A stretch of 64,000 nt of DNA from an uncultured Chthoniobacterales bacterium (GCA_902805675.1 CADCTA010000057.1:1-64000), one strand, 5' to 3'; positions 9,596 to 54,362 are shown, numbered from the stretch's first letter. Translations and numbers: made by a program. Notes: generated from the letters alone by a model not told the origin.

Positions 9596-10819
9596 TCACC
9601 GTTCTGCCGTGCGCGTGCCGGGTGACGGTGAGGCGTCGGCTTTCGGCCGCTCGGCTTTCCAGACAGGGCCTTCCTTCGCGAAGACGGGAGCTTCCACCGC
9701 GGGCTTCGGCACGTCGCTCGCGGCCAGCTTGAAGATCGGCAGGATCGGATTGCCCTTTCCGTCCTTGGGATACTGCACGCCGTCTTTCTCGAGCAACAGC
9801 CAGGCCTTGAAATCCCCGCCCGGCCATTCGCCGATCAGCACCTCCATCGGATAGCTTTCGCCGGCTGTGACCTGGAAGGCGTCGCCACGCCCGAGACCCT
9901 TGTACCACGGCATGTCGCTCTTCATTTGCAGCCCTTCCGTCGCGTAGAACGAGCGCGGCTCCTTGCCGCTCGGCATGTTGGGCCCGCAATCAAGCACCAC
10001 CTGGCCGTTAAAGCGCACGACGAGCACGTCGTCACCCATGCCGACGAAGCGATACGTGCCGCTCTCCGGGGGGACGACGTTCCCTTTGTAGTGCACCACC
10101 CACATCCTCGGTTGCACGCGGCTGAGATTGAATGCCCGCGGGCCTTGGTCGGCGTTGATCTTCGGGATGAAGATCTGCGTCGTGTAGAGCGGGTTCGGCC
10201 CCACGAAATACTTCGCGAAGTGTGATTCGTTCCACCCACGGACAAAATCCGAGAGCTCCTTCGGATAATCCTTCTCGTCGAGATTGGATGGCTTGCCCTC
10301 TTTCGTCTGCTTCAGGTCGTAGAACTTACCGGCGAGCGAGCCGCCGCCTTTCGACTCCCGAAACCCGAAGAACGGCACCGCGGCGCCGCCGGCTCCCGAG
10401 CCGCCACTTGCGGTGAAGCCGCCGGGATTGAAGCTGACATCCGTCCCGCCGGCGCCCGCCATCTTCGTGGGCGCAGATGCGAGCTTCGGCATCGCCGGCA
10501 TGTCCGGCAGCGTCACTTTCGAGAGGCCTGTCGTGGTGATCCGCTTGGCCATTTGCGGCGCACTCATCGAGCTCTGCTTCTTCGCCATCTGCACCTTGTG
10601 CTCGATCGCGCGCGTGGAGGGATTCGGCGATGGCGGCCCGCCTTTGAAGGTCAGCTTCCGTGCAGCCTGGTGTTTCTGCACCACGTAAACCGCCGCACCC
10701 ATGCCGAAGAACACGTGCACAGCGATGCTGATGATGAGGAACTTCGCGCCGAACTGCCTCCAGCTCCACCGGCGCTTCGCTGGCGACGGCGGCGCAACTT
10801 CTGCCGGGGCGTCGATCAT
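9596..10819 (-). CDS. TonB-like membrane protein with C-terminal PA14-like domain
   Basis: A 407-aa protein. A short cytoplasmic N-terminus (PSPAKRRWSWRQ) precedes one membrane helix (about residues 28-47), then a Pro/Gly/Ala-rich periplasmic linker (about 50-165) with polyglycine patches. A folded C-terminal half follows, whose ESGTYRFVGMGDDVLVVRFNG (split about 260-280) matches the heart of PA14-like carbohydrate-binding beta-barrels. The topology resembles TonB/TolA, and the gene is last in an operon with an ExbB/TolQ channel and two ExbD genes, but I see no TonB C-terminal domain. I infer a force-transducing or anchored envelope protein energised by the ExbBD motor. It overlaps the upstream exbD by 4 bases. 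The PA14 call is moderate. Confidence 0.65.
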   Translation of the reverse strand: MIDAPAEVAPPSPAKRRWSWRQFGAKFLIISIAVHVFFGMGAAVYVVQKHQAARKLTFKGGPPSPNPSTRAIEHKVQMAKKQSSMSAPQMAKRITTTGLSKVTLPDMPAMPKLASAPTKMAGAGGTDVSFNPGGFTASGGSGAGGAAVPFFGFRESKGGGSLAGKFYDLKQTKEGKPSNLDEKDYPKELSDFVRGWNESHFAKYFVGPNPLYTTQIFIPKINADQGPRAFNLSRVQPRMWVVHYKGNVVPPESGTYRFVGMGDDVLVVRFNGQVVLDCGPNMPSGKEPRSFYATEGLQMKSDMPWYKGLGRGDAFQVTAGESYPMEVLIGEWPGGDFKAWLLLEKDGVQYPKDGKGNPILPIFKLAASDVPKPAVEAPVFAKEGPVWKAERPKADASPSPGTRTAER

Positions 10820-11259
10820 TCTTCTTCGGCGACGGTGAAGGTGACGTTGTCGATCTTCGCCACCGCGAGCGCGTCCAGCACATCGACGGTGCGGCTGTAC
10901 TTGGCCTGCTCATCGCTGATGATGGTGACGACCGCCGGTGTCTTCGCCGCGTCGGCGTTTTGCTTGAGGCGCATCAGCGTTCCGCGCAGCTCCGGCAGTT
11001 CCTTGCTCTGTGGCGTGTCAAACGGCTCGTCGTTCAGGCTCACCTCGCCGATGTCCGAGATGGTGATGATCTGTTCGTCGACGAAGTCGGTGGAGGTCGA
11101 GGTGGCCGCGGTGCCGGGCAGCTGCGTGTTGAGCTCGTTCTCGATCTTCACCGCGCCGGCCATGACCATGAAGAACAGCATGATCACGAACACGACGTCG
11201 ATCATCGGGGCGATCTGAAAGCCGACGTTCTCGGCGTGCGAATTGATTTGGAGGCGCAT
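10816..11259 (-). CDS. ExbD/TolR-family biopolymer transport protein (second of pair)
   Basis: A 147-aa inner-membrane protein: a short cytoplasmic tail, one membrane helix with the proton-path aspartate in IAPMIDVVFVIMLFF (Asp about 21), and a periplasmic domain. ExbD/TolR proteins pair with an ExbB/TolQ channel to convert proton-motive force into motion of a TonB/TolA-type partner. It lies 1 base from the upstream exbD paralogue and overlaps the downstream PA14 gene by ATGA. The periplasmic part is divergent and acidic. It cannot be assigned to Exb or Tol proper. Confidence 0.88.
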   Translation of the reverse strand: MRLQINSHAENVGFQIAPMIDVVFVIMLFFMVMAGAVKIENELNTQLPGTAATSTSTDFVDEQIITISDIGEVSLNDEPFDTPQSKELPELRGTLMRLKQNADAAKTPAVVTIISDEQAKYSRTVDVLDALAVAKIDNVTFTVAEEE

Positions 11260-11260
11260 G

Positions 11261-11716
11261 CTATTCCTTGTTCGTGGCTGAGAACGAGATGTCGCTGATG
11301 CCCGCCTCCGCGCAGGCGTTCATCGCCTGCGAAACGTAGAGCGCAGGCACGTCGCGATCGCCGCGGATGATGGCGCGGAACGCCGGGTTCGCACCAGCGG
11401 TGATGTTCTTCTCGCCGGTAATCTTCGCCGTCTTCAGCTGCTCGACGATCTCGGTCGCGCTCTTGTAGACCCGATCCTCATACACGAACTCGGCGCGCTT
11501 ATTTTCCCAGCGCACATTCACCACCGTCTCGGCGCGCGAGTTGTCCTTCTTCTGCGCGTTCTTCGCGATCGGGAGGTCGATCTTCTTGTCCACCTTCAGC
11601 ACCGAGGCCGAGGTGATCGTCATGAAGAAAATCAGGATGACGAGCAACACGTCGATCATCGGAGCTATCTGAAACTCCGGCTCGCCCGAGTCGCTGCCTC
11701 CGCCTCCACCTGCCAT
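11261..11716 (-). CDS. ExbD/TolR-family biopolymer transport protein (first of pair)
   Basis: A 151-aa ExbD/TolR protein. A glycine-rich cytoplasmic start (MAGGGGGSDSGEPEF) precedes the helix IAPMIDVLLVILIFFM with the conserved aspartate (about residue 21), then a periplasmic domain containing IIRGDRDVPALYVSQAMNAC, close to the TolR/ExbD consensus. Two different ExbD proteins in tandem may form a heteromeric motor stator or rotor. It is 139 bases downstream of the TolQ-like channel gene, with a palindromic repeat in that gap. Confidence 0.9.
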   Translation of the reverse strand: MAGGGGGSDSGEPEFQIAPMIDVLLVILIFFMTITSASVLKVDKKIDLPIAKNAQKKDNSRAETVVNVRWENKRAEFVYEDRVYKSATEIVEQLKTAKITGEKNITAGANPAFRAIIRGDRDVPALYVSQAMNACAEAGISDISFSATNKE

Positions 11717-11751
11717 ACCTCTAGCCCTCTACGGCGCGCCCGCGCAGCGCC

Positions 11752-11833
11752 GTTGTTGCGTCCGCTGTCCCAGCGGATCTTCGCGCCCGTGCCACACTTT
11801 TCGTGATGCGCTGGGGACAGCGCACACTACAAC
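11752..11833. repeat. Imperfect terminal-inverted-repeat element (family G)
   Basis: An arm reading GTTGTTGCGTCCGCTGTCC is matched in inverted orientation by GGGGACAGCGCACACTACAAC (imperfect) about 50 bases away, giving an ~82-bp structure between the tolQ-like gene and the first exbD. A single copy is seen here. It could attenuate or stabilise the mRNA at this junction. Confidence 0.55.
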
Positions 11834-11855
11834 TGCCCTCGAGGCCGATCATCGG

Positions 11856-12746
11856 CTAAGCCCGCAGCGGACCTGTGGCGCCAGTAGCAATGCGCCCTGT
11901 CGCGCCCGTTGGAATGCGACCAGTTGTCGAGCCAGTCCCATCTTCCGGCTGCACGAGCCAGTTCGGGATTGCCGCATACAACTCCTCGTCGCCGATATGT
12001 ACCCCGGCGAGGGATTCGTACGGCATCTTCCGGAAGGCGCTGTTGATGACGTCCTGGATGTGATGGATCGAGGCGGCCGCGCGATTGCGCAGATAGTAGA
12101 ACGAGCCGAAGGCCGGGATCGCGATGAACAGACCTGACGCCGTCGCCACGAGCACCTCACCGATCGCCGCCGACAAGCCTGACGGATCGCCGATGCCGGC
12201 TGCGCCGAGATTCGCGAATGCCTTGATCATACCGGTGACCGTTCCGAGCAGACCAATCATCGGCGTACAAACACCGATCACCGAAAGGTAGCTGATGTAT
12301 GTCTGCATGTTCGCATTCTCCTTCTGGAGTTCGCCCATCATGCCCTCCTCCGCGTTCGGCTTGCCATCGCCGAGCAGGCTGATGCCGACGCGCAGCACGT
12401 TCGTGAGCGGCGATGGGTTCTCTTTGCAGAAATTGTAAGCGCCGACGTAATCGCCCTGTCGGAAGAGCGCCTTCACGCTCTGCTCGTGTGCCGGCGGCGC
12501 GACGCGCTTGCGACTTGTGCGGATGACGCCGTCGCCGATCAAATAAAGCGTCGCCACCGAGCAGAGGCCGATCGGGATCATCACCCATCCGCCTTCCTTG
12601 ATCTGCTCCCAAAGCGTCTTCGAATGCACGCCGCTGCCGTGGCCACCGGCCGCACCCGCAGCGGGCTCCTGCGCCACGCCCGCGCTGACGAACAATAACA
12701 GCGTCAGCAAGGTGAGCGCGGCGAGATAAAGATTTTTCAATTTCAT
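11856..12746 (-). CDS. MotA/TolQ/ExbB-family proton channel protein with signal peptide
   Basis: A 296-aa inner-membrane protein. An apparent signal peptide (residues 1-25, ending AGVAQ) precedes a first helix (VMIPIGLCSVATLYLI), a cytoplasmic domain and the paired conserved helices. The family core reads CTPMIGLLGTVTGMIKAF, then ALVATASGL-like EVLVATASGLFIAIPAF (about 160-215). It should form the proton channel for the two ExbD proteins downstream. The C-terminus ends in an odd TGRIPTGATGRIATGATG stretch. An N-terminal signal sequence with extra periplasmic residues is common in such channels of this phylum. It is in an operon with TPR genes upstream. Confidence 0.9.
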   Translation of the reverse strand: MKLKNLYLAALTLLTLLLFVSAGVAQEPAAGAAGGHGSGVHSKTLWEQIKEGGWVMIPIGLCSVATLYLIGDGVIRTSRKRVAPPAHEQSVKALFRQGDYVGAYNFCKENPSPLTNVLRVGISLLGDGKPNAEEGMMGELQKENANMQTYISYLSVIGVCTPMIGLLGTVTGMIKAFANLGAAGIGDPSGLSAAIGEVLVATASGLFIAIPAFGSFYYLRNRAAASIHHIQDVINSAFRKMPYESLAGVHIGDEELYAAIPNWLVQPEDGTGSTTGRIPTGATGRIATGATGPLRA

Positions 12747-12774
12747 AGGGGTAACGCGGGTCCACGCGTTCAGT

Positions 12775-13584
12775 TCATAACTTCTGCAATTCTGTTTTGG
12801 CGGTGGCTGCTTCAGCCGATTTCGGAAAGCCTGCGATCAGCTCGTCGAGCGTCTTCTTCGCGCGTTCTTTGTCTTCCAGCCGCCGATACGCACGCGCGCT
12901 GCCGAGCAACGCCTGCGGCATATACAACTTTTCGTCGCGATAAAACACCGGCACGCGGAGGAAAGCGAGCAAAGCCGCATCCCATTGGTTCTGGGCCATC
13001 AGCACGTTGCCTTTTGTGATCCAGGCGTCGGCCAGCACGTCAGGTCGCGTGCTCTCCTTGATCGCAGCGTCAACGATCTGCGCCGCCTTCTCGTACTCCT
13101 GCCGCTTCACGAGCGAGCTCGCGATCCGCAGGTTTGCGACGCGCGCAGTCTCGGGATCGGTCGCGGTTTTTTGGATCATCGTCGCGAGCGGCTCTGCTTC
13201 CACATCGCGCTGCAAAGCGGCCAGCGCGGAGACTTTGATCACCGCAGCGGGAGCCCACCACGCGCCGGGGATATCGCGGAACGACTCGTAGAACGTGATG
13301 ATGGGATGGATGTCTGCGAGCGCCTTCTCAGCGTCTCCCTGCGAAAGAAACTCGGCAGCGCGTTTGATCCCCTGCGGCTCCAGGAATTCGATCTTCGCTA
13401 TCGCGGAGACATCGTGGCCGACTTCACCAGCCGTGCCGCCGACGGCGATCTTCCCCATCACCTTGTCGCCGCTGCGGCGCACGCCAGTGGTGTCCACACG
13501 CTGGCCGGTTTTCAAAACGATCGTCTGAGCTTGGGTGCTCGACCGTCCGGCAAGGAGTGCGAGGGCGACAAACAACACCGTCAT
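12775..13584 (-). CDS. Secreted tetratricopeptide-repeat protein
   Basis: A 269-aa TPR protein starting at the ATG at 13584 (MTVLFVALALLAG, signal peptide to about TQA-Q). After about 55 residues of beta-type sequence (VLKTGQRVDTTGVRR...GKIAVG), helical TPR-like repeats run to the end (AEFLSQGDAEKALADI, KRQEYEKAAQIVDAA, SARAYRRLEDKERAKKTLDEL). A different ATG at 13767 overlaps the upstream gene by ATGA and would be the coupled start, but the 61 residues between are mostly a translated type-D palindromic repeat (13580-13705). The repeat has therefore entered the original leader, and its own ATGAC end now offers a start. Function is unknown; it is probably an accessory of the ExbBD system. Confidence 0.75.
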   Translation of the reverse strand: MTVLFVALALLAGRSSTQAQTIVLKTGQRVDTTGVRRSGDKVMGKIAVGGTAGEVGHDVSAIAKIEFLEPQGIKRAAEFLSQGDAEKALADIHPIITFYESFRDIPGAWWAPAAVIKVSALAALQRDVEAEPLATMIQKTATDPETARVANLRIASSLVKRQEYEKAAQIVDAAIKESTRPDVLADAWITKGNVLMAQNQWDAALLAFLRVPVFYRDEKLYMPQALLGSARAYRRLEDKERAKKTLDELIAGFPKSAEAATAKTELQKL

Positions 13585-13705
13585 TCCGAGCGAAGTCGAG
13601 GAATCCCGTTGCGACACCTTTACGGTAAAGCCACGGGATTCCTCCACTTCGCTAAGTTTACCCTGAGCGAGCAAAGCGAGTCGAACGGGCTTCGGTCGGA
13701 ATGAC
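13580..13705. repeat. Palindromic repeat family D, copy 1 (inside a coding leader)
   Basis: A 126-bp element with ends GTCATTCCGAGCGAAG and CTTCGGTCGGAATGAC and an inner inverted pair CGAGGAATCCCG / CGGGATTCCTCC. It lies within the 5' end of the TPR gene, in frame, between the ATGA-coupled start (13767) and the mature signal peptide. A second copy is at 19059-19149. Confidence 0.85.
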
Positions 13706-13763
13706 AGCGGGGCGAGCGCAGTGAACAATCGCGAATCCAAGATCGCAAATCGATGATTTCGCC

Positions 13764-16604
13764 TCATCCCTGTTGCCCCATCGCGTCGAGTTTCTTGCGC
13801 GCTTGCTGCGCTTCCGCAAAGGAGGCGAGCTTTTCGTTGCGCAGCAGTTCCCGGTAGGTGTTCGCGGCTTCCTGCAGCTGGCCGAGCTTCTCGAAGCTCT
13901 CCGCGCTCGCCATGTAAGCCTTCGCCACCCAGGGCAGGAACTTTTGGTAGCCGACGTAGACTCGCTGGAAGTAGGCATTCGCCTCAGCCCAACGCCCGCG
14001 TCGCGCCTCGATCTCGCCTAACGAGAAGACGCTGAACGCAGTCGCCTCACCACGCCACTCACGCACCGCTGCCACCTGCTCGAAGACTTTCCGCGCTTCG
14101 TCGAGATTACCTGTCGCCAGCAGCGTCTTGCCTCTGCCCACCGTCACATCCTTCAGCTTCGAAACCGCGGCGATCTTCTCCGTGGCCTCAGTGAACAAGC
14201 GCAGCGCCTTCACGTGATCGCCCTTCTGAAACGCGATCTCTCCAAGGCCGTTGTAGGCGAAGTCGACGTATTCGCTCTTCGGAAACTCGTCCATGAGCCG
14301 CTGGTAGAAGTCGCGCGCCTTCTCCAGCTTATTGGTGGCAAGCAGATGATCGGCCGCGCGGCCGAGCAGCATCGGACTCAGGTCGTCAGGCTTGGAGCTT
14401 TCTGCAATGCGCGCGATGTTCTTCTCTTCTTCAGCCGGCTGGCGGCGAAGTCGCGCCAGCTCGGCTTTGGCAAACAGAATGCGCGCCTTCGCAGTCGGAT
14501 GCGGATCTTTGTCGGCGTCGCCAAGCAGCGTGTCGAGCTCCGCGCCTGGATCCGTCGGCGGCGGTGTCGGTGCCGCTTCCGCCTCACCTTCAGCTGGTGG
14601 CTCGACGCGCTTCTTTCGCACGCATAGCTGCGCCAGCTGCGTCAGCAACATCTCGACCGGCTCACGCTGCGGATCCCGAATGTACTTCTTGATCGTGTCG
14701 GCTGTGATGCGCTTCGCCTCGTCCGGCTGGCCCTGGTGCGACTTCGCTTTGCCTATCCAATACAGTGCCGTGATGACGGACGGATGCTCAGGTCGCTCCT
14801 CGATGAACTCGCTGAAAAGGTTGCTGACCTTGTCCCACTCGCCGCGCTTCTGGAGAATCTTGCTCGCGGCGAAGAGCGCGTAGTTCATCACCTCATCGGT
14901 GGCGGCGAGTTTGTAGCTGCGGGTGTAAATGCCCACCGCCTCCTGCTCGCGATCCGTCCCCGCGTATGCGTCAGCTAGAAGAGAGAGCACCTCACCGAGC
15001 TGCTGGTTTTTCGGATACTCCGCTTCCCAGGTCTTGCAGTCCTTGATCACATCGTCGTAGAGCGACGCGGCGTACTTGCAGACGGCGAGACGATACTTCG
15101 CATCGGTAACGAATGCCCCCTGCGGATACTTCTGCATGTAGGCATTGAGCTCCGTCATCGCCTGCTCGTACTTCCCGGAGAACAGCGCCGTCAGCGCAAT
15201 CCGGTAGACGACGTCCTCGACGCTCTGTCCCTTCGGGTACTCGCTCAGATATTTCTTGTACTCCGCCGCGGCTTCGTCGTGCTTACCGGCCATGAACTTC
15301 GCGTTCGCGAGCAGGTATCGCATTTGTTCGCGGTAGGTGCCCTTCGCCTGCGTATCGAGCATGCGGCCGAAGTAGGTCTCCGCCGCGCGCGGGTCATTCG
15401 CCTGTAACGCGACCGCGCCTAACAAGTAGCCGACCGTCTCGGCGTTTGGGCCATCCTTGAAGTCGCGCAGATATTCCTCGCAACGCGCCATCGCCTTCTC
15501 CGGCTGGTTCACATCGGACAGCGCGACAATGATGCCGAAGAGTGACGGCTCGCGTTCGGCAGCCTTCGGAAAACGATCGAGTATCTCCTGTGAGACGACT
15601 ATCGACTCCCACTTCTTGTCGATCTCAAAGAAGCAGCGCGCCAGCCGGATGTAGATCGCCGGCGTGACGTTCGGCAGCTTCTGGAATTCGGCGAGCAGCC
15701 TCTGCGCATTCGCGATATCGGCTTTTAGCTGGTTGTTCGCGGTGCCGAGATTGCTGATCTGCGACGGATCGGCGCGTGCGGCGCTGAGATTGTTCTCAAT
15801 CGCCTGCTGCATGCCCGCGATGCGCTCCGTTTGCATCCGCACGATCTGCTCCGGGCGATATGCCGCGCGGTAACACTCCAGCGCGTCGGCGTAGAGCTTC
15901 TTCCCGTAGAGCTGGTCGCCGAGCTCCACGGTCAGAGCGTTCAGCTCCACGATATTGTCCACGAGATGGATGCTTCCGTGCAGCTTAGTGATCGTCTGCA
16001 CCGCTTTGTCGGCGATCCCTTTCTGCGCATACGACTGCGCTAACATCATCGCGCCGCGAACCGCCTGCGCGGTCTTGATCTCGCCGCCGCCCACCTTCTC
16101 GAGAACGGCTGCGGCTTGATCGGCTTTGCCGCTTTCCTTCAACGCCTGCGCCTGCGCCATCAACGCCTGGTCGCGGAACTTCGGGTCCTTCTCGAGCGCG
16201 GCGAACTGCGCAGCGGCAGCGTTGTAGTCCTTGGTCAGCAGGCTGCACTGCGCGATGGCGAACGCGGCTTCGGAGGCGTGCGCGCCCTGCGGGAATTTCT
16301 CCTGATATTTTTTGAAAGCGGCCGTCGCTTTCTTGTGGTCGTTCGCGTTGAAATAAGCCGATCCGATCGTGTAGAAGATCGGCTCCATCTGCGGCGAGAA
16401 CTCCGCCTTATTCACCAGCGCCTCGAGCTCGGTCGCTGCTTTCGCGTAATCGCCGCCCTGAAAGGCAGCCATTGCCTGCCCATACTGCTGCGCAAGTTCG
16501 CCACCTTCGGCGGCTTGTTGCGCGAGAACCGGTGCCGCCGTGCAGCTGAACGCGACGCACGCGAGTGCCGCAGCGACCCTGGTGCGAAAACGCTCAACCC
16601 TCAT
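13764..16604 (-). CDS. Large periplasmic tetratricopeptide-repeat protein
   Basis: A 946-aa secreted protein with a signal peptide (about residues 1-28, VLA-QQ). It has 15 or more TPR/Sel1-type helical pairs covering nearly the whole length, such as AFQGGDYAKAATELEALV, YLSEYPKGQSVEDVVYRIAL and FYQRLMDEFPKSEYVDFAYNGLGEIAFQKGDH. The 'YPKG...V/A.YRIA' repeats resemble those of YbgF/CpoB and BamD, periplasmic partners of the Tol and Bam machines. A Pro/Glu/Ala-rich break (PPAEGEAEAAPTPPPT) splits the solenoid at about residue 665. As first gene of the operon leading to TolQ/ExbD/PA14 genes, it may be the scaffold of that envelope complex. Function is inferred from context only. Confidence 0.85.
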   Translation of the reverse strand: MRVERFRTRVAAALACVAFSCTAAPVLAQQAAEGGELAQQYGQAMAAFQGGDYAKAATELEALVNKAEFSPQMEPIFYTIGSAYFNANDHKKATAAFKKYQEKFPQGAHASEAAFAIAQCSLLTKDYNAAAAQFAALEKDPKFRDQALMAQAQALKESGKADQAAAVLEKVGGGEIKTAQAVRGAMMLAQSYAQKGIADKAVQTITKLHGSIHLVDNIVELNALTVELGDQLYGKKLYADALECYRAAYRPEQIVRMQTERIAGMQQAIENNLSAARADPSQISNLGTANNQLKADIANAQRLLAEFQKLPNVTPAIYIRLARCFFEIDKKWESIVVSQEILDRFPKAAEREPSLFGIIVALSDVNQPEKAMARCEEYLRDFKDGPNAETVGYLLGAVALQANDPRAAETYFGRMLDTQAKGTYREQMRYLLANAKFMAGKHDEAAAEYKKYLSEYPKGQSVEDVVYRIALTALFSGKYEQAMTELNAYMQKYPQGAFVTDAKYRLAVCKYAASLYDDVIKDCKTWEAEYPKNQQLGEVLSLLADAYAGTDREQEAVGIYTRSYKLAATDEVMNYALFAASKILQKRGEWDKVSNLFSEFIEERPEHPSVITALYWIGKAKSHQGQPDEAKRITADTIKKYIRDPQREPVEMLLTQLAQLCVRKKRVEPPAEGEAEAAPTPPPTDPGAELDTLLGDADKDPHPTAKARILFAKAELARLRRQPAEEEKNIARIAESSKPDDLSPMLLGRAADHLLATNKLEKARDFYQRLMDEFPKSEYVDFAYNGLGEIAFQKGDHVKALRLFTEATEKIAAVSKLKDVTVGRGKTLLATGNLDEARKVFEQVAAVREWRGEATAFSVFSLGEIEARRGRWAEANAYFQRVYVGYQKFLPWVAKAYMASAESFEKLGQLQEAANTYRELLRNEKLASFAEAQQARKKLDAMGQQG

Positions 16605-19058: not shown

Positions 19059-19149
19059 GTCATTCCGAGCGAAGTCGAGGAATCCCGTGGCTTCCCGTGA
19101 GGTGGCGCCACGGGGTTCCTCCACTCCGCTGCGCTTCGGTCGGAATGAC
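19059..19149. repeat. Palindromic repeat family D, copy 2
   Basis: A 91-bp element with ends GTCATTCCGAGCGAAG and CTTCGGTCGGAATGAC and the inner pair CGAGGAATCCCGTGG / CCACGGGGTTCCTCC. It lies between divergent prc and the MBL hydrolase gene, 36 bases before the latter's start. It is shorter in the middle than copy 1. Confidence 0.85.
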
Positions 19150-51776: not shown

Positions 51777-54362
51777 ATGATCAAACGAGCATTCGCTAAA
51801 CACCGCAACCTCGCAGGCGCCCTGGCTTTATTGCTCACCACCGGCGTCGTCTTTCCAGCACTCGGGAGCGATACCGCCGCGGCGGCGCACCCGTACTCCG
51901 GGCGAACCGTCACGGAAGTAGATCGCAGCCGACTTCCAGCGGCCCTGCAAAATGTGCCGCTGGAGCGCCTCTCATCCGGTGCGCTGATCCGCCTCGGCCT
52001 TGCCGAGTCAGACGAGGATTGGAATGCTCGCGTCGCGCGCGCCGCTGCGGCCGACGTGCAGGAGCGCAAAGCTGCCGTCGCGCTGGATCGCCGCGTGGGC
52101 GCGAACATCCGCCTCGGCGACGATCCGCCCGAATTGCCGTCCTTCCGTCGCGCGCAAGCCGAGCCACACATCGCGCGTTCGCCCACCGACCCTGATTTTC
52201 TGGTCGCCACGTTCCAGGAAGGACGCTTTCGCGACGGCGGCGCCGTCAACTGCGGCTACTCGACGAGTCGCGACGGCGGCGTGACGTGGTCGCGCGCGCT
52301 GCTGCCCGGCGCCGGCGCGGTCAGCGGTGGACCTTACGAGCGCGTGACAGATCCCGTGGCCGGTTTCGATCGCGCGGGGAATGCATACGTAAACACGCTC
52401 GGGCTGATCACCGGCACTACGTCGACCGGCACGCAGGACTTTGATGGCAGCGTGATTGTCAGTCGCTCGACCGACGGCGGCGTCACCTTCGGCCAGCCGG
52501 TGCTCGCGTACAAAGAGCCCAATGCCGACACCTTTGCGGACAAAAACTGGATGGCGATCAATAACTTCCCCGGCACGCCGACCGCGGGCCGCATCATCCT
52601 CACGTTTACGATCTTCTCGAACGTCGGCGGCACGGCGCACCCGATTGCGCGCGTCTACAGCGACGACCAGGGCGCCACGTGGAGCCCGCTCGCCTACATC
52701 CACTCGCTCAACAACCAGGTGCAGGGCTCGCAGCCCGTCTTCCTCCGCGATGGCAGGCTTGTGATCGTTTACTGGAACTTCATGGGCACCAGCACCTTCG
52801 CCGACGATCGCCTCGAGCTCGTCGTCTCGAACGACGGCGGGAACACTTTCGGTCCGCCAAGGCCGATCACGAACGTCGCGATCTACGGACCTCCTAACAT
52901 TCGCAGCGGCGGTTTTCTTCCATCCGTCACGACCGACCGCGAGACCGGCACTCTCTTCCTCACCTACCAGGCCCGCCATGAAGGGCAGCCGCGCATCATG
53001 TTTATGCGTTCGTCCGATGCGGGGAACAGCTGGAGCACCCCCATTCCGATCAGCAACAACCCGCCGAACTCTGGCGTGTTCAACCCGGCGATCGCCTCCT
53101 CCGCCGACGGGCGCACACTGACGGTCGCGTTCTACGATCTGCGCGATAATCCCGGATCAACGACGCGCTGTGACATGTACCTCGCGCAGTCCTTCGACGG
53201 CGGAAACACGTGGCAGCCAAACATCCGCCTGTCCAGCGAATCGACAGATGCAGCGCTCGCCGTCAACACCGGTTCGGACAGTAACCCCAGCTATATGCTC
53301 GGCGACTACATTGGCATCGCGGAGCCGGTTAACTCAAACGTGCCCGCCGTCCCGGTGTGGATCGACACGCGGACGGGCGATCCGGATCCGTTCGTCACGC
53401 GCGTCGGCATCGCGCCGCAGCTGGATTTCACCAGCTGGCAGGCGGCCCGCTTGTCGTTTAGCCAGACAGGCAATCCGGCATCCGGCGGGGAGTCCGGGGA
53501 CGCAGATGGCGACAACGCCTCGAATTCATCCGAGTACAACACGGACACCGAGCCTAACGAGTTTTTCCACACCGGGCGGCAGCTCAACATCTCGACCCGC
53601 GCGCGGGTTCAGACCGGCGAGAACATCCTGATCGGCGGATTCATCGTCACCGGCAGTGAACCTAAGCGCGTGGTCATCCGGGCCCTCGGCCCGTCGCTCA
53701 CCGGGGCGGGCGTGCCCGGAGCACTGCAGAACCCGACGCTCCAATTGCTGACTGACAACAACGCGCTGGTCGCCGAGAACGACGACTGGCGGCAGACGCA
53801 GGAATCGGAGATTACGGCGACCGGCATCCCGCCAGCGGATGATCGCGAGGCCGCGATCGTGCAGACATTGTCGCCGGGTAACTACACTGCCGCCGTGCGC
53901 GGCGCCGGCGACACCGCAGGCGTGGCGCTGGTGGAGATCTACGATCTCGCGCCGGGCGCAAACTCGCGGCTGGCCAACATCAGCACGCGCAGCTTTGTCG
54001 AAGCGGGCGAGAACGTGATGATTGGCGGGCTAATCATCGGCGCCGGCGCGGGACCAGACGGAGCCGGTAGCACGCGTGTGGTGCTGCGCGCCACCGGTCC
54101 ATCCCTTTCGCAGCAGGGTGTTACCGGCGCGTTGCAGGATCCGGAGCTGCTGTTGTTCGATGCGAACGGCTCGGTCATCGAGACGAACGACAATTGGCGC
54201 CAGACTGAACAGGCCGACGTCCGCACGTTAAACCTCGCGCCACGAGATGATCGCGAAGCAGCCCTCGTTGCGAGCCTGCCCCGCGGCAGCTACACAGCGA
54301 TCGTGCGCGGACGCGACGGAACGACGGGCGTGGCGCTGATCGAGGCTTACAACGTGCAATAG
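51777..54362 (+). CDS. Secreted Asp-box beta-propeller protein with tandem C-terminal modules (copy 1 of tandem pair)
   Basis: An 861-aa secreted protein with a signal peptide (about residues 11-30) and a GAAGGA ribosome site. The central domain (about 110-560) has many Asp-box repeats: SRDGGVTWS, STDGGVTFG, SDDQGATWS, SNDGGNTFG, SSDAGNSWS and SFDGGNTWQ, fitting a six-bladed BNR/sialidase-like propeller. EPHIARSPTDPDFLVATFQEG near the start is typical of exo-alpha-sialidase-annotated proteins, but no catalytic set is visible. A DADGDNASNSSEYNTDT spacer (calcium-loop-like, about 575) leads to the two modules (603-731, 732-861), ending GVALIEAYNVQ. It is a clear paralogue of the protein at 55203. 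Confidence 0.85.
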   Translation: MIKRAFAKHRNLAGALALLLTTGVVFPALGSDTAAAAHPYSGRTVTEVDRSRLPAALQNVPLERLSSGALIRLGLAESDEDWNARVARAAAADVQERKAAVALDRRVGANIRLGDDPPELPSFRRAQAEPHIARSPTDPDFLVATFQEGRFRDGGAVNCGYSTSRDGGVTWSRALLPGAGAVSGGPYERVTDPVAGFDRAGNAYVNTLGLITGTTSTGTQDFDGSVIVSRSTDGGVTFGQPVLAYKEPNADTFADKNWMAINNFPGTPTAGRIILTFTIFSNVGGTAHPIARVYSDDQGATWSPLAYIHSLNNQVQGSQPVFLRDGRLVIVYWNFMGTSTFADDRLELVVSNDGGNTFGPPRPITNVAIYGPPNIRSGGFLPSVTTDRETGTLFLTYQARHEGQPRIMFMRSSDAGNSWSTPIPISNNPPNSGVFNPAIASSADGRTLTVAFYDLRDNPGSTTRCDMYLAQSFDGGNTWQPNIRLSSESTDAALAVNTGSDSNPSYMLGDYIGIAEPVNSNVPAVPVWIDTRTGDPDPFVTRVGIAPQLDFTSWQAARLSFSQTGNPASGGESGDADGDNASNSSEYNTDTEPNEFFHTGRQLNISTRARVQTGENILIGGFIVTGSEPKRVVIRALGPSLTGAGVPGALQNPTLQLLTDNNALVAENDDWRQTQESEITATGIPPADDREAAIVQTLSPGNYTAAVRGAGDTAGVALVEIYDLAPGANSRLANISTRSFVEAGENVMIGGLIIGAGAGPDGAGSTRVVLRATGPSLSQQGVTGALQDPELLLFDANGSVIETNDNWRQTEQADVRTLNLAPRDDREAALVASLPRGSYTAIVRGRDGTTGVALIEAYNVQ

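Follow-up and report, generated by a model that had tools for sequence, protein, structure and literature searches.

Six co-oriented genes on the minus strand of a 64,000-nucleotide stretch of DNA from an uncultured Chthoniobacterales bacterium (the whole stretch is hereafter referred to as the window) form a real and conserved operon for an energized envelope machine, in which a proton channel and two different ExbD subunits are encoded together with an arm protein carrying a PA14 head. This PA14 head is a new variant of an already published type of motor operon. Since Williams-Jones et al. (2025, PMC12204202) have described the vWA-headed form of the same operon in the PVC group, the system of the window is not new as such. 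Its interesting parts are the modular heads, the kinase tails found on some arms and the possible link to the mucin-utilization locus MUL1 of Akkermansia muciniphila. We rather favor the reading that this TPR/TolQ/TolR-pair/transducer operon encodes a proton-driven motor pulling, through the PA14 head, on a putative glycan or glycosylated target in the envelope. The features of the locus are as follows.

13764-16604, minus strand: TPR-large, a secreted protein of 946 aa with signal peptide and many TPR repeats (Pfam TPR_6, E 8e-33), the conserved first gene of the operon
12775-13767, minus strand: TPR-small, a secreted protein of 330 aa as annotated (Pfam TPR matches)
11856-12746, minus strand: ExbB/TolQ-type proton channel of 296 aa with an N-terminal extension (Pfam MotA_ExbB, E 5e-24)
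11261-11716, minus strand: ExbD1, 151 aa, the first of two different ExbD/TolR subunits (Pfam ExbD, E 5e-19)
10816-11259, minus strand: ExbD2, 147 aa, the second, family-specific ExbD/TolR subunit (Pfam ExbD, E 6e-17)
9596-10819, minus strand: PA14-headed transducer (the arm), 407 aa (Pfam PA14, 27.5 bits against a cut-off of 24)
13589-13653, no strand: REP-like inverted repeat within the annotated 5' end of the TPR-small gene

The genes are transcribed in the order large TPR, small TPR, ExbB, ExbD1, ExbD2 and PA14 protein. The first-pass annotation had described six co-oriented genes at 9596-16604 for a proton channel, two distinct ExbD subunits, two secreted TPR proteins and a PA14 protein, and both the positions of all six open reading frames and the Pfam assignments agree with this description. 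It had also described the spacing as tight, which stands for the downstream part, where the ExbD2 and PA14 genes overlap by 4 bases and a single base separates ExbD1 from ExbD2; the gaps are 28 bp between TPR-small and ExbB and 139 bp between ExbB and ExbD1. Doubtful, however, is the 4-base overlap between the TPR genes, as it hangs on the ATG at 13767. About 60 codons between this ATG and an in-frame ATG at 13584 traverse the REP-like hairpin, of which a second copy is present at 19068-19130 (expected by chance, 0). Since the signal peptide of TPR-small begins at 13584 and the codons upstream lie in the DNA of the hairpin, the true start is probably at 13584, giving a protein of 269 aa, and the overlap is probably an annotation effect of the hairpin. 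The operon is flanked by the genes for Prc (tail-specific protease) and YkuD (L,D-transpeptidase) as identified by Pfam; both were rejected as parts of the unit, as the link with Prc is confined to the four nearest relatives.

The six-gene arrangement is far beyond chance, and conservation of its order across Verrucomicrobiota, proposed as a check of the first description, was observed in dozens of other genomes. Among a total of 195 Verrucomicrobiota genomes searched, relatives of the PA14 arm were present in 77 (genomes in which the match is confined to helix and linker are counted here as well), and members of the ExbD2 family in 101 (profile, E <= 1e-20; the profile included one MUL1 sequence). 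Loci were then collected from the matches in these 195 genomes and from 80 named genome contigs. The gene located directly after exbD2 was PA14-headed in 24 loci, vWA-headed in 59 and toroid-headed in seven, vWA thus being the commoner head in this operon type. Because some loci were counted twice (L031=L159, L033=L172, L050=L219, L098=L218), the distinct PA14-headed loci are 23 plus that of the window. The full upstream gene set was present in 20 of the 24 loci, and about half of the PA14 genes start with a 4-base overlap with exbD2. A conserved link between the PA14 gene and exbD, on which the original proposal depended, is therefore supported by the 23 other distinct loci, but the link is facultative: vWA is commoner, two close relatives (loci L158 and L161) lack the PA14 gene at this site, and many genomes carry stand-alone PA14 arms. 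These stand-alone arms were also considered as markers of polysaccharide loci and rejected as such, since the neighbors that could be read were, on visual inspection, largely housekeeping genes and no partner recurred among them.

The heads are exchanged in evolution among PA14, vWA and toroid, while the motor, helix and linker are kept. At locus L033, two arms encoded side by side have identical sequences over helix and linker, after which one goes on into a vWA head and its neighbor into a PA14 head. Gene order at L158 and L161 matches that of the window between the Prc protease and YkuD, with exactly the PA14 gene missing. Elsewhere in the L158 genome there is a single arm, which ends in vWA and whose helix and linker are 54% identical to those of the window arm. 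The possibly incomplete L161 genome gave no arm, and the genome of the window and two relatives carry the PA14 arm only. On a tree of ExbB plus ExbD2, the head label needs at least five changes, and a single clade of PA14-headed motors is rejected (p 4e-5), so that one late acquisition of PA14 was discarded. The toroid head was identified by Pfam as an alpha/alpha-toroid; its AF2 model is low in confidence overall and good in the head, and its PDB matches are alpha/alpha-toroid proteins.

The motor proteins of the operon carry the residues of ExbB/ExbD 5:2 proton motors, the ExbD Asp and the ExbB Thr. The transmembrane Asp is invariant in the aligned sequences of both ExbD1 (D22) and ExbD2 (D21), and the pore residues T169 and T202 of ExbB are invariant across 10 aligned sequences. 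In the ExbB plus ExbD2 tree, the motors of this operon type group together as a single clade, separate from the 12 further Exb motors included (support 95 from a short search).

The 407-aa arm was modeled by AF2 using 20 homologues, giving a model in which residues 13-51 are helical, 84-146 are disordered and about 150-370 make up a confidently predicted head (pLDDT mostly above 90). The best PDB match of this model by Foldseek is the PA14 domain of the Marinomonas ice-binding adhesin MpAFP (top E 2.7e-7), with Epa and Flo lectins ranking next; among the 50 matches listed, none is a TonB or TolA domain. Neither Pfam nor NCBIfam gave a TonB_C match on the arm, and a PDB sequence search with this protein alone gave no significant match. 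The head is a PA14 beta-sandwich with a conserved acid pair, D263 being retained in 41 and D264 in 33 of 45 aligned heads (Asn in eight of the 45 at the latter position). The transmembrane helix (about 13-51) bears S31-x3-H35, the spacing of TonB and TolA. S/T-x3-H was detected in 90 of 97 arm helices of the family, as compared with four of 208 ExbB/ExbD helices and 12% of shuffled helices, and most of the seven arms lacking it still have His at or close to that position. Beyond the helix, RKLTFKGGP (54-62) is a candidate motor box: TonB has an ExbD-binding D-box positioned relative to the Ser of the helix motif (PMC10907165), and, as judged from position counted from this Ser, RKLTFKGGP may occupy the same place. 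A second linker motif of the V/I-S/T-L-P-D/E-M-P type, about 70 residues past the motif Ser, is common to arms with different heads. Taken together, the S-x3-H helix, the Pfam match, the AF2 model and the Foldseek ranking bear out the single-pass protein of TonB topology with PA14 in place of the TonB domain, and the predicted structure is a PA14-lectin fold in which a standard TonB C-terminal domain was not found.

MUL1 (Mul1A/Mul1B) includes five of the six parts, namely a large TPR, a small TPR, ExbB and two ExbDs, but differs from the operon of the window in the permuted order, the absence of an adjacent transducer and the far-diverged sequences. The Akkermansia genome compared is presumably the one carrying MUL1, and a match of the Mul1B model agrees with this assignment. 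The best match of the TPR-large profile in Akkermansia is the MUL1 TPR protein (49 bits versus 31 for the next), and TPR-large is a possible counterpart of Mul1A. TPR-small is the sole match of the Mul1B model NF052542 in the genome of the window, at 25 bits against a cut-off of 75, and thus lies below the threshold for membership in that family. The MUL1 motor nests within the operon family at 82% in the ExbB plus ExbD2 tree. As the alternative of a MUL1 branch lying outside this clade could not be rejected (p 0.108) and the MUL1 ExbD2 is barely closer than another Akkermansia ExbD (61 versus 56 bits), MUL1 was not accepted as a secure ortholog; the sequence comparison makes it a probable, not proved, divergent relative of common ancestry. 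No PA14 gene adjoins MUL1, and the Akkermansia PA14 proteins of the arm family are located away from it, without the helix His. The accumulation of mucin products inside Akkermansia requires the MUL genes (review, PMC12418764), and an association of CAZymes with Mul1A is indicated in PMC11790493.

In the mechanism that we propose, the two ExbDs would form a heterodimeric axle inside an ExbB pentamer, on which the arm would dock through its His helix and by pairing of the post-helix strand with the ExbDs. Proton flow would then pull the PA14 head. A partner that is a glycan or is glycosylated (imported polysaccharide, cell wall or a glycoconjugate of the outer membrane) would be presented by the TPR scaffold and may be held by this head. 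The target would be set by the head, which would be the part replaced during evolution while the motor, helix and linker stay. The original suggestion that the motor acts on a polysaccharide layer or an outer-membrane protein may thus hold in this form. The most likely biology would be a role in glycan uptake or retention by analogy with the related-looking MUL1, and this is the weakest step of the proposal. Counted against glycan pulling are the facultative linkage of PA14 to the motor, the insecure relation to MUL1, the ability of PA14 domains to bind proteins as well, and the Pfam scan of the main open reading frames of the window, in which no glycan-degradation gene was detected; the scanned genes are for transport, phosphate-type regulation, housekeeping and two BNR-repeat proteins.

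Because no polysaccharide-degradation cluster is included among these scanned genes, a role in envelope integrity is a serious rival, possible though less than probable in our estimate. The PA14 or vWA head would then grip peptidoglycan or an outer-membrane glycoconjugate as in a Tol-Pal-like machine, and would hold the outer membrane to the wall or drive constriction, with no nutrient uptake. Besides the lack of carbohydrate-degradation genes nearby, the broad conservation of the ExbD2 family and, within its own family, the position of the operon between the protease and the transpeptidase, both envelope enzymes, agree with such a role. The protease neighbor is, however, restricted to four near relatives among the named loci, and MUL1, which is the only system of comparable composition to have been studied, is linked to mucin utilization (PMC12418764).

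A signaling receptor, with a transmembrane sensor put under tension by the motor and a head conveying the state of glycan or envelope inward, appears unlikely. Such a receptor is suggested by arms of L162, L163 and L170 (Chthoniobacterales-type MAGs), in which a Ser/Thr kinase at the N-terminus (best Pfam E 7e-43) is joined to the same helix and linker, and by SAM domains on arms of L033, L194, L196, L200 and L205 (Pfam confirms the kinases and, of the SAM domains, those of L033; SAM was assigned to the remaining arms from resemblance of their N-termini). Most arms, including that of the window, nevertheless have a short cytoplasmic tail alone, and in one of the kinases Cys replaces Arg of the HRD motif. 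Least probable, and already disfavored, is an ordinary Ton system with TonB encoded elsewhere and the PA14 protein as an accessory uncoupled from the motor. The genome indeed includes nine TonB_C matches, all at places other than the 407-aa arm, and eight matches to TonB-dependent receptor plugs, but the PA14 protein retains the TonB/TolA docking motif, its gene directly follows exbD2 with an overlap in about half of the cases, and the motor clade is separate from the other Exb motors tested. Since TonB and its dependent receptors are encoded elsewhere in the genome, the PA14-armed motor is an extra machine and no substitute for Ton.

If the glycan-pulling motor is correct, proton-motive force is passed on to a sugar-binding fold on the periplasmic side, and no such use of an ExbBD-type motor was found in the literature searched. 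The natural swaps provide a ready comparison for learning the role of each head, and signaling may be a further function of the motor, as suggested by the arms fused to a kinase. A wider reading, which we offer tentatively, is that Verrucomicrobiota possess a general periplasmic machine, driven by protons, into which various heads (PA14 lectin, vWA and alpha/alpha toroid) and cytoplasmic kinase or SAM modules can be plugged. The PA14 form of this machine would be a powered glycan-pulling lectin, and MUL1 would have descended from the machine. MUL1 was read in 2026 as a gut-only adaptation (PMC13174399); if it is related, the gut mucin locus would instead be a late version of an old environmental machine, a reinterpretation that stands or falls with the insecure relation to MUL1.

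Among known systems, the vWA force-transducer operons are the closest: as described in PMC12204202, they share with the window a TPR gene, a single tolQ-like gene, two different tolR-like genes as a pair, an SHLS-type helix with disordered linker, the gene order and the motor family, and the vWA arm was modeled as docking at the TonB/TolA site through His. Of the features defining that operon type, the upstream gene set and the Ser/His helix are present in the window, and the vWA fold at the C-terminus is replaced by PA14; because of this replacement, the operon was filed as a variant of the type and not as a vWA transducer. PA14 is unmentioned in the main text of PMC12204202, and its section on these operons does not describe toroid heads or kinase or SAM tails. 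PA14 linked to such a motor was not found in the literature searched, which lay mostly outside subscription journals. The operon resembles ExbBD-TonB in the channel, ExbD, arm topology, S-x3-H helix and strand-like motif past the helix, but differs in the two different ExbDs, two TPR partners, lack of a TonB C-terminal domain and lack of a nearby receptor gene. With Tol-Pal (TolQRA, TolB, Pal, CpoB) it shares the channel and axle family and a TPR protein with YbgF/CpoB-like repeats, but it has two TolRs, no TolA domain and no TolB or Pal. The first-pass view that the operon is neither canonical ExbBD-TonB nor Tol-Pal is thus supported by the arm without a TonB or TolA domain and by the absence of TolB and Pal from an operon flanked by Prc and YkuD. 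The PA14 lectins (PA14 of the MpAFP adhesin, Epa and Flo adhesins) are similar in the head fold, with the acid pair mostly retained, but the PA14 domain of the window is predicted from sequence and model to be carried on a motor-coupled inner-membrane arm facing the periplasm.

At L033, a locus from another member of the Verrucomicrobiota, two neighbouring SAM-domain arms are identical in helix and linker and differ in the head (vWA versus PA14).

L033:7229-8620, SAM-domain arm with vWA head
L033:8643-10238, SAM-domain arm with PA14 head

An alpha/alpha toroid of squalene-cyclase-like fold is the third head type on the motor operon (L099, L100, L103, L112, L197, L205, and L234), and at three loci a Hanks-type Ser/Thr kinase is located N-terminal to the motor-docking helix of the arm.

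L162:2887-5208, kinase arm with PA14 head
L163:3174-5546, kinase arm with PA14 head
L170:1682-3034, kinase arm interrupted by the contig end

A REP-like inverted repeat with the arms GGGATTCCTCSACTTCGCT is present in the window in two copies, and two large BNR-repeat proteins are also encoded there.

13589-13653, repeat copy 1, within the 5' end of the small TPR gene as annotated
19068-19130, repeat copy 2
51777-54359, BNR-repeat protein, 861 aa
55125-57683, BNR-repeat protein, 853 aa

Five genomes of a single Verrucomicrobiota genus (G035, G050, G087, G127, and G160) each encode between two and nine dispersed PA14 arms, distant from several motor loci that lack an adjoining arm, and no recurrent neighbours of these arms were seen among the neighbourhoods examined. 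In Akkermansia-type genomes (L042-L044 and L047), PA14 proteins of the family, with a helix lacking the motor-docking His, are encoded apart from the motor of MUL1, the mucin-utilization locus. At L046:15713-16501, a PA14 head without helix or linker forms an apparently secreted protein, and the gene run upstream resembles a BatA-like operon.
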